Of a stretch of 64,000 nt of DNA, positions 10,369 through 12,895 are shown in pieces (positions within the stretch are counted from its first letter, which is position 1; each line of letters starts with the position of its first letter). Location: NCBI GenBank assembly GCA_001023575.1, contig CP011489.1, positions 930,001 to 994,000 on the forward strand, written 5' to 3'. Position numbers and translations under genes: made by a program. The notes under the pieces are model-generated. The model worked only from the letters and a program-made list of their open reading frames with translations. It ran no database searches and was not told the DNA's origin. The DNA comes from Actinobacteria bacterium IMCC26256. GTDB taxonomy: Bacteria > Actinomycetota > Acidimicrobiia > IMCC26256.

Positions 10369-11088
10369 CTACTCGTCCTCAGTTTGGGGGAGGCCGGCAC
10401 GTAGCTCGATCGCCTTGAGGGCGAGGCGCTGTGTGGTGCGTTTATGCAAGTACTCGACGACGCGCGTGAATAGGGGATAAAGGCTATGAGCAGCGCTATC
10501 CGCGTTGGATCGAAACTCAACAAACTCCTCAGGGGTAAGCGACGTTGGATACTGTCCCGAGAAGATCTCAACCACCTGAGACTGCATGCTCTCGACGCCA
10601 TCGACATAGATGCGTGCGAGCTCAATGAGGATCGGATTAGGGATACCGAGGCGGCTTAATTCTCCGACAGCGCGAATCATGTCGAGGTCGTTGGCGTCGT
10701 AAGCACTCTGCCCGAACTCTGCTGGGTCCCTCAGTAAGCGTTCGCTTTGGAGAACCGCAACGGTCTTCTCGTTGATTCCGCTCTTCTGAATGAGTTCCTC
10801 GAGGGTATACGAGACTCCGATGTCGCCTGCGAATACCTCCTCTACCAGATCGACCCCTCGATCTGCATCGAGTAATGCTCGGATGGCGGCGAGTGAGAAT
10901 CGCTTGGCCTGCAGTTCTCGAATGCGCTCGAGCCGAGCAAGGTGGTCGGGTCCAAATTCCTTTGTACGCCCAACCCTCACTGCGGGTTGCAGAAGTCCCT
11001 CGCGCTGGTAGAAACGAATGGTGTCAACGGTCAACGAGGTACGACGCGCGAGGTCGTCTATTCGCCAGCCTCCGGATTCTTCAGGCAT
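10369..11088 (-). CDS. MerR-family regulator with two MerR-like helix-turn-helix units
   Basis: A 239-residue transcription regulator. Residues 8-74 are a normal MerR DNA-binding unit (WRIDDLARRTSLTVDTIRFY... EFGPDHLARLERIRELQAKRFSLAAIRALL). Residues 94-160 look like a second, degenerate copy (YTLEELIQKSGINEKTVAVL... YDANDLDMIRAVGELSRLGIPNPILIELA). The C-terminal 80 residues are helical and probably bind a ligand or dimerise. Such two-unit MerR proteins are less common than single-unit ones. The gene lies upstream of the crotonase at 9389 on the same strand and is divergent from a 55-residue ORF; the inverted repeat at 11190 sits between them. Control of the flanking crotonases is an inference from position. 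Confidence 0.88.
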   Translation of the reverse strand: MPEESGGWRIDDLARRTSLTVDTIRFYQREGLLQPAVRVGRTKEFGPDHLARLERIRELQAKRFSLAAIRALLDADRGVDLVEEVFAGDIGVSYTLEELIQKSGINEKTVAVLQSERLLRDPAEFGQSAYDANDLDMIRAVGELSRLGIPNPILIELARIYVDGVESMQSQVVEIFSGQYPTSLTPEEFVEFRSNADSAAHSLYPLFTRVVEYLHKRTTQRLALKAIELRAGLPQTEDE

Positions 11089-11189
11089 TCAATCTCTGTT
11101 CTCTCAAAGGGAGGTGCGCACCAGAGGAGCCTTCCAAGGGGGTGAGCTCGTTTGTGGCTTTGGTCACATAGTTCGTGTAGGTACTCTGA

Positions 11190-11203
11190 GAGAGGATACT
11201 CTC
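11190..11203. promoter_or_regulatory. Inverted repeat upstream of the MerR-type gene
   Basis: GAGAG-GATA-CTCTC lies in the 193-bp divergent region between the regulator (start 11088) and the 55-residue ORF (start 11282). It is also part of a TACTCT...TACTCT direct repeat. It is a candidate autoregulatory operator. Confidence 0.4.
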
Positions 11204-11281
11204 ACCTTTGTACGAGAAGTCAATAGAGGAATTTTTCTCTGTTAGAGCGAGTCTTCAAACCAGACCCGAGAGGAGAGCTAA

Positions 11282-11449
11282 ATGTCAGATCAGCAGAGTA
11301 AGAAGCAGAGCGAGCAAGCAGCCTCAGTGCGGAGATGGATTACTCAACAGTTGAAGTGGGAGGAGTCACTCGAGTCTCTTAGAGACACAGATGACGAATC
11401 CAACCAAGATCGCAGCGCGGAAGTAGTGAGCCCAACTCGGGCCGCCTGA
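11282..11449 (+). CDS. Small hydrophilic protein of 55 residues
   Basis: A short ORF beginning ATG TCA GAT CAG and ending GCC GCC TGA. It encodes MSDQQSKKQSEQ... WITQQLKWEESLE... TRAA, which is highly charged, has no membrane segment, and contains one amphipathic helix with two tryptophans. A strong ribosome binding site (GAGAGGAGAG) sits four bases before the ATG, and the very strong hairpin at 11500-11548 follows the stop, so it forms a complete small transcription unit. I do not recognise the family. It is divergent from the two-unit MerR regulator and could be its target, but that is only positional. Confidence 0.6.
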   Translation: MSDQQSKKQSEQAASVRRWITQQLKWEESLESLRDTDDESNQDRSAEVVSPTRAA

Positions 11450-11499
11450 CCCCTGCGAATTGGGTCGGCGACCTCCCCCGGATGCCGATCCTACGACCC

Positions 11500-11548
11500 G
11501 CCGTCGCCTCTCTCTCCTAACCCCCCCCTTGGAGAGAGAGGCGGTGGC
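11500..11548. terminator. Very strong hairpin between convergent genes
   Basis: A perfect 13-bp inverted repeat, CGCCTCTCTCTCC (11505-11517) and GGAGAGAGAGGCG (11531-11543), extends outward to about 18 bp with two G-T wobbles. The 13-nt loop contains eight consecutive C. It follows the 55-residue ORF and faces the crotonase at 11702, so it probably ends transcripts from both sides. Confidence 0.75.
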
Positions 11549-11552
11549 GAAG

Positions 11553-11749
11553 TTGTTTTAGAAGCCCCTAAATGTTGGGTCCCGTTTCTCTCGCATCGCC
11601 GCTGTCACTATGTCGCGGCGAAGCTTGTTTTAGAAGCCCCTAAATGTTGGGTCCCGTTTCTCTCGCATCGCCGCTGTCACTATGTCGCGGCGAAGCTTGT
11701 TTTAGAAGCCCCTAAATGTTGGGTCCCGTTTCTCTCGCATCGCCGCTGT
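11553..11749. repeat. 72-bp tandem repeat (2.7 copies) duplicating the 3' end of a crotonase gene
   Basis: Units start at 11553, 11625 and 11697. The first two are identical over all 72 bp and the third matches for 53 bp before diverging at 11750. The third copy is the real 3' end of the minus-strand crotonase with its TAA stop at 11702-11704. The two others repeat that coding end, including the stop, downstream of it. Each full unit contains a CGCCGC-N12-GCGGCG stem-loop. The period is 24 codons and the frame is kept. Confidence 0.95.
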
Positions 11750-12538
11750 TCTCTCTTGGGAGTCAGCGGTTGCGATGTTGAGCTCCACGAAGAGCCCCTC
11801 CTGCTCGAGTACTACCGAGCGACCATTCTCAACGGACGAATGGAGAAGTTGCTTCGCCCATCCGAGTACCTTCGTCGGCTTCGAGGCCAAGCGATCAGCC
11901 ATGTCTTTAACGTAGGTATCTAGCTCGTCACCAGGCACCACTCGATTGATAATGCCGAGTTCAAGCGCCTCATGCGCTGAGATGGTCTCACCAAGCATCA
12001 CGATCTCTTTGGCGCGATGCATCCCAACAATCTGAGGCAGTAGATATGCGAAGCCTCCATCGGGGAGTAGCCCGCGAGATGCGAATACATCTACAAAACG
12101 TGCTGTATCTGAGGCAACAACTAAATCTGCAGCGAGGGCCAGCATCGCTCCGCCGCCCGCAGCGGTTCCATTCATCGCTGCAATGATTGGCTTCTGGCAA
12201 TCCTGCATGGACTCCATTAGGCGTTGAAAGCCCGTGCGCATCATCTCGACTGCGCTGCCAACTATGAAATCTGGGGCACCCTCCGGCAGGGTGGGAGGGG
12301 TTGGGCGTACTCGCAGGTCGGCCCCTGTGCAGAAGTGTCGATCACCTGCACCGGTTAGGACTATCGCTCGAACGTTTAGATCGGAGTGTGCATTTGTGAA
12401 GTGCTCTATTAGTCGATCACGCACGTAATAAGGAATTGCGTTCGACATCTCAACTCGATTGATGGTGAGAGTGAGAACTCCATTAACTAGCGATGCGAGG
12501 AGTTCGTTCTCGACGTCTTGGGTCGGCGTGGATGTCAT
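11702..12538 (-). CDS. Enoyl-CoA hydratase/isomerase family protein (crotonase fold)
   Basis: A 278-residue crotonase-superfamily protein. The oxyanion-hole regions are AIVLTGAGDRHFCTGADLR and AAMNGTAAGGGAMLALAADLVVAS. At the second catalytic position the sequence is FVDVFASRGLLPDGGFAYLLP, so the canonical glutamate is absent, as in many crotonase-family isomerases and lyases. The C-terminus AAMREKRDPTFRGF is the normal family ending and is the part duplicated in the 72-bp repeats. The ATG at 12538 follows AAGGAG. It is divergent from the ferredoxin gene across a 156-bp region. A role in acyl-CoA breakdown is supported by the other lipid genes nearby. Confidence 0.92.
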   Translation of the reverse strand: MTSTPTQDVENELLASLVNGVLTLTINRVEMSNAIPYYVRDRLIEHFTNAHSDLNVRAIVLTGAGDRHFCTGADLRVRPTPPTLPEGAPDFIVGSAVEMMRTGFQRLMESMQDCQKPIIAAMNGTAAGGGAMLALAADLVVASDTARFVDVFASRGLLPDGGFAYLLPQIVGMHRAKEIVMLGETISAHEALELGIINRVVPGDELDTYVKDMADRLASKPTKVLGWAKQLLHSSVENGRSVVLEQEGLFVELNIATADSQERTAAMREKRDPTFRGF

Positions 12539-12694
12539 GCGTGTCTCCTTGGGCTGAGATTTCTTCTGGAATCAAGAGTTATGTTCAGAGCATAGGGGCG
12601 TGGTCCCTACTTGGGATTCCGTCATGATGGTTCGGTATGGTTAGGTAACCTTGCTGGGCCGCAAGCGCCTGCAAATTGAGGAGGAGCGACGAGT

Positions 12695-12895
12695 ATGAAA
12701 ATTTTAGTTAACTTCGATCTCTGTAAGAGCAACGCCGTATGCATGGCATCTGCCCCTGAGATATTTGAGGTACGCGACGACGGTTATCTCTACATTCTTC
12801 AGGAAGAGCCAGACGAGACACACCGTGCGGCCGTAGAAGAGGCTGTGCGCCTCTGCCCAACACGCGCCATCACAGTTGAGGACCAAGCGCTGTAG
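12695..12895 (+). CDS. [3Fe-4S]-type ferredoxin (P450 redox partner class)
   Basis: A 66-residue ferredoxin. Three cysteines, C10, C16 and C54 (in LCPTRAI), are arranged as in the single-cluster [3Fe-4S] ferredoxins that serve actinobacterial P450s; a fourth cysteine is missing. The start ATG at 12695 follows GGAGGAG. Its TAG stop overlaps the GTG start of the adjacent ferredoxin reductase by one base, so the two form a coupled operon. Together they probably carry electrons from NAD(P)H to one or both P450s in the window (5126 and 23600), and possibly to other oxygenases. Confidence 0.92.
   Translation: MKILVNFDLCKSNAVCMASAPEIFEVRDDGYLYILQEEPDETHRAAVEEAVRLCPTRAITVEDQAL

Follow-up and report, generated by a model that had tools for sequence, protein, structure and literature searches.

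A tandem array at the 3' end of a crotonase gene in the actinobacterium IMCC26256, and its joint shared with a cpaF/tadB array

Bacterial minisatellites (VNTRs) consist of head-to-tail units of tens of base pairs that vary in number among relatives, are homogenised and lie near gene ends. Another class of repeat, the mycobacterial interspersed repetitive unit (MIRU), is located where a stop and a start overlap and forms small ORFs that are coupled; its units, likewise tens of base pairs long, stand in tandem between genes, vary in number among strains and are dispersed over many loci. REP elements associated with RAYT (a Y1 transposase) are small palindromic hairpins next to genes, and templated insertions of the MMBIR type, for which the papers found deal mostly with eukaryotes, combine a tandem duplication with microhomology at the joints and with a short filler whose source lies elsewhere. 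At senX3-regX3 the MIRU array consists of two 77-bp units and one 53-bp unit in CDC1551 and of three 77-bp units in H37Rv (PMC4213456).

Here a tandem array at the end of a crotonase gene is compared with these systems. It lies within a 64,000-nucleotide stretch (termed here the window, to which positions refer unless marked otherwise) of the genome of Actinobacteria bacterium IMCC26256 (G000), and three relatives of the same genus (G001, G002 and G003) are used for comparison. Like minisatellites, it consists of head-to-tail repeats well within the usual definition (at least about 10 bp), with a copy number that varies between species; unlike them, it carries at its joint a non-native hairpin that is common to one other locus, where the repeated host sequence is different. 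MIRU units are dispersed as such, whereas here only a joint of about 20 nt is shared, by two loci, and the rest is duplicated host sequence. What differs from MMBIR-type insertions is that one and the same filler occurs here at two loci and forms a hairpin with the native flank. A tandem duplication by itself is ordinary; the unexpected part is the same joint at two loci.

We favour, with slightly better than even confidence, the reading that this is a lineage-specific, neutral bacterial minisatellite at a gene 3' end, which arose through template switching with a shared filler, followed by slippage. REP/RAYT elements were rejected, since the hairpin is found at two loci only and the Y1 transposase (PF01797) in 0/4 genus genomes; CRISPR-type or ectopic spacer integration was likewise rejected, since Cas1 (PF01867) is found in 0/4. 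Positive controls worked in both searches.

The array at the crotonase gene end

The crotonase gene (enoyl-CoA hydratase/isomerase, 278 aa; 11702-12538, minus strand, in the ORF list) encodes a protein matching Pfam ECH_1 (E=1.7e-53), and the orthologues of G001, G003 and G002 end at the same residue. Tandem Repeats Finder places an array of period 72, with 2.8 copies and 99% matches, at 11546-11749; a repeat search resolves it into two identical 72-bp units (11553-11624 and 11625-11696; 100% mutual identity) and a further copy, starting at 11697, that is identical over 53 bp. Both programs and the position of the ORF thus agree with a reading made earlier from the sequence alone, which had described a tandem duplication of the crotonase 3' end in two perfect copies and a 53-bp partial one. 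The partial copy (11697-11749, minus strand) is the native tail--that is, the gene end, the stop and the first bases beyond it--and is present singly in G001. The second unit (11625-11696, minus strand) joins a 53-bp tail copy (11625-11677) to a 19-bp junction sequence (11678-11696), and the third (11553-11624, minus strand) likewise joins a tail copy (11553-11605) to a junction sequence (11606-11624). The repeated segment therefore comprises the last crotonase codons, the TAA, a few bases beyond and the junction sequence, the last of which the native gene end lacks. In the IMCC26256 genome (2.46 Mb, 99.93%-complete, single contig) the 72-bp unit occurs at one place only; for that reason, and because no other part of it than the junction hairpin turns up again, at a single additional locus, a MIRU unit was rejected.

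Each tail copy contains a TAA: the one at 11702-11704 is the real stop, and those at 11630-11632 and 11558-11560 are copies of it. The first TAA closes the protein, which the array leaves unaltered. Past that stop each unit translates as NKLRRDIVTAAMREKRDPTFRGF followed by a stop, and, 72 bp being 24 codons, the frame between stops is open in both G000 and G003, as the earlier claim of a preserved 24-codon frame would have it. Such a frame could allow read-through to lengthen the crotonase by one or two 24-residue tails, but this is very improbable: no read-through signal was identified, the frame would be kept by chance in one of three duplications, and G001 and G002, relatives with a single copy, conserve both stop and tail.

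At the two unit-unit junctions lie two identical hairpins (11665-11696 and 11593-11624, minus strand) of the form GCTTCGCCGC-GACATAGTGACA-GCGGCGATGC, the first of which matches covariance model R1 with 50.5 bits. The core, on the minus strand, is CGCCGC-GACATAGTGACA-GCGGCG, and the RNA folds at about -17 kcal/mol. Its 3' arm is native, its loop new and its 5' arm native in part. On the plus strand the right-hand half of the junction reads GGCGAAG(C)TTGTTTTAG, which is the native left flank with one base added. Because the 5' arm and the loop are present solely at unit-unit junctions, three tails give only two hairpins, and the sequence-only reading was mistaken in assigning a CGCCGC/GCGGCG stem-loop to every copy.

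A separate stem-loop with 19-nt arms (11499-11549, an inverted repeat assigned to no strand) adjoins the array between convergent genes. The region 11490-11560 folds at -37/-41 kcal/mol (one value per strand). The stem-loop is single in every species; G001 and G003 have the same stem, and G002 has a hairpin of different sequence at the matching position; from its position and conservation it is probably a bidirectional terminator candidate. A terminator scan of 11000-12700 detected no T-run after this stem, nor any after the junction hairpins, for which an intrinsic terminator (a GC-rich stem followed by a T-run) was accordingly rejected; the region has no match to an Rfam family up to E=1. 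Facing the array is a convergent 55-aa ORF (11282-11449, plus strand) that matches no Pfam or NCBIfam family. Similar DNA occupies the corresponding position in G001 and G003, so that the ORF may be a real small gene.

These structures bear on the idea that, in RNA, the junction hairpins add sites of transcription termination or stabilise the 3' end of the crotonase mRNA, to an extent tuned by copy number. The hairpins do fold stably, they sit just past stop codons, and their number differs among species. Nevertheless, such a role is improbable: they lack a T-run, they are missing from G001, which retains both the gene and the separate stem-loop, and the latter is stronger and conserved. A change in copy number had been expected to alter the number of 3' hairpins, but terminator tuning of this kind finds no support, given the missing T-run and the fact that the stronger, conserved stem-loop stays single copy.

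A shared joint at cpaF/tadB

Searching the whole G000 genome with the junction as a pattern reveals one further place, a second array (G000:C1:217448-217621; 65-bp period, 2.7 copies) that spans the cpaF stop and the tadB start. The genes concerned encode a CpaF-like T2SSE protein and a TadB-like protein with a weak T2SSF match (E=4e-5). In G000 and G003 the units of this array are chained 22-aa ORFs with GTGA stop/start overlaps, and in G000 two units interrupt the ancestral direct coupling of cpaF to tadB. Of the two arrays, the setting of a MIRU, a stop/start overlap (here GTGA) with units that are small coupled ORFs, is seen at cpaF/tadB and is missing at the crotonase site.

The joint of the second array, on the minus strand, is CGGCGC-GACATAGAGACA-GCGCCG: its loop equals the crotonase loop except at one base, and the arms of the two hairpins differ by one complementary pair. 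Both joints align as TGTC[A/T]CTATGTCGCG[G/C]CG(AA)GCTTGT (in short form, CWCTATGTCGCG...GCTTGT), an alignment equalled in 2 of 20000 shuffles, and exact matches to CGACATAGNGACAGCG are expected at 0.005 per genome. Native CGCTGT is common to both array sites. For the crotonase array chance is excluded, since an identical junction sequence stands at the corresponding position in a related species (see below). The loop strand is sense to the crotonase gene and antisense to the genes at the second array, which makes a common sense-RNA role unlikely.

A sequence that recurs in this way might be mobile, and the main rival to an accidental minisatellite is a mobile hairpin with long target duplications. 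A tiny element of about 20 nt would insert 5' of ACAGCGSCG and duplicate a target of 40-60 bp, and the resulting target-element-target arrays would amplify later. Consistent with this, the same non-native sequence stands at two unrelated sites with duplicated host flanks, both sites have the native CGCTGT and are empty in G001, and the loop GACATAGNGACA is confined to the two array loci among the four genus genomes. The sites number only two, however: a covariance model run over the genus yields no third junction-hairpin locus (weak matches of 16-22 bits come without a comparable tandem array), and the junction sequence is found in 0/54 order genomes outside the genus and, beyond the two loci, nowhere in 58 order genomes. 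Searches yielded no full-length parent element of the hairpin, and the array matched nothing in collections of plasmids and phages. In viral contigs the loop pattern has 32 exact matches, of which nearly all are stemless and the best has a stem of 5 bp; these were taken as chance, so that convincing stem-bearing copies are missing there too. Moreover, neither Y1 transposase nor Cas1 occurs in the genus genomes, and the native flank explains half of the crotonase joint. We regard mobility as unlikely, though as less so than any other rival. The wider claim that a hairpin-forming sequence of about 20 nt spreads in this Acidimicrobiales lineage, duplicating 40-60 bp at gene boundaries with one arm matched to the target and using no known transposase or integrase, is a shade more doubtful still.

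Copy number, homogenisation and a possible origin

At the crotonase locus the tail is present in three copies in G000, two in G003 and one each in G001 and G002. The two copies of G003, the nearest relative, have the same junction as those of G000; the single copy of G001 comes without any junction sequence or junction hairpin; and the crotonase of G002 has 74% protein identity. The series at the second array is the same (three copies in G000, two in G003, one in G001). The sequence-only reading had proposed a count in other strains; compared between species, with one genome each, the copy numbers do differ (3/2/1 in G000/G003/G001). G001 and G003 are fragmented drafts that might collapse identical repeats; the G003 copies are resolved, because they differ from each other.

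The crotonase genes of G000 and G003 have 95.2% DNA identity (against 89%) and 18 shared derived sites (against 8 and 5), and they differ at 33/278 third codon positions (12%). By identity and shared derived sites the two are sisters among the genus genomes compared, and the simplest history is a single duplication that postdates the separation of G001 and predates that of G000 from G003. With two copies and an identical junction in G003 as well, the array is older than the G000/G003 split and is not an assembly artefact. The artefact that had been named as the alternative is correspondingly very improbable: the exact copy number of G000 does rest on one assembly, but in the independently assembled sister two copies can be told apart and have this junction too, and a second locus behaves in the same way. 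The word 'recent', too, has to be divided. It does not apply to the origin, given that the duplication and its junction are common to a species diverged by 12%; what looks recent is limited to the perfect identity and the third copy. The G003 record (contig CAMDSG010000124.1), whose crotonase gene has 95% DNA identity to that of G000, is titled Bifidobacterium breve and is probably a mislabelled MAG.

Within the 48-bp tail the three copies of G000 are identical and the two of G003 differ at 2 sites, while copies of one species differ from those of the other at 3-5. Site 20 has a G003-specific base in both G003 copies, and site 24 a G000-specific base in all G000 copies. At 12% third-position divergence the chance that 72 neutral bases stay identical since the species split is about 1e-4; hence the copies have been homogenised or re-expanded, and the suggestion of homogenised copies stands, paralogues being closer than orthologues. 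At the second array, a 43-bp comparison gives 3/43 differences between orthologous copies and 5-11/43 between paralogous ones, and the extra G000 copy nearly equals the native copy (1/43); the ancestral copy number at the cpa locus is two, and the third was gained in G000. After the last tail copy in G003 (CAMDSG010000124.1) there follow short GGCTTCTAAA repeats, most with a TAA, that are found in G003 only. They are another sign of slippage at this site, where it seems to be still going on.

An origin as a minisatellite might have proceeded as follows. In the ancestor that G000 and G003 have in common, an error of replication or repair would have duplicated the crotonase tail in tandem and left at the joint a short filler not native to the site, made up of CACTATGTC and some of the native left flank. 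Because the same filler lies at the joint of the cpaF/tadB duplication, the joint of one array was probably the template for the other, through microhomology template switching via the shared CGCTGT; later palindrome 'correction' possibly made the hairpin arms pair. Slippage or unequal exchange would then have given G000 its third copy at each of the two loci and prevented the crotonase copies from diverging. Termination would proceed via the separate stem-loop, the protein ending at the first stop. Against such an accidental minisatellite, the same filler and the same 3/2/1 series at two unrelated loci make a strange coincidence, template switching across distant loci is itself something we infer, and stems that differ by one complementary pair around a loop that is kept could hint at selection or at a specific enzyme. 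One non-native joint at two unrelated tandem duplications, with 1-, 2- and 3-copy states in three close species, makes a small ordered series from which the birth of bacterial minisatellites might be read, be it through template switching that involves a common filler or from a minimal mobile hairpin.

The tandem-repeat background was sampled in 875 kb of G000, consisting of 40 evenly spread stretches together with the window and the cpaF region. Most arrays of period 25-200 in this sample are contained in open frames; apart from the cpaF array, only four rows fall outside, in a rough scan whose frames are open stretches on either strand rather than called genes and which counts the array of the window as inside one. 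At G000:C1:501684-504910 there are long collagen-like tandem repeats of the GXX type (periods 27-225 bp), apparently within the gene for a large repetitive protein.
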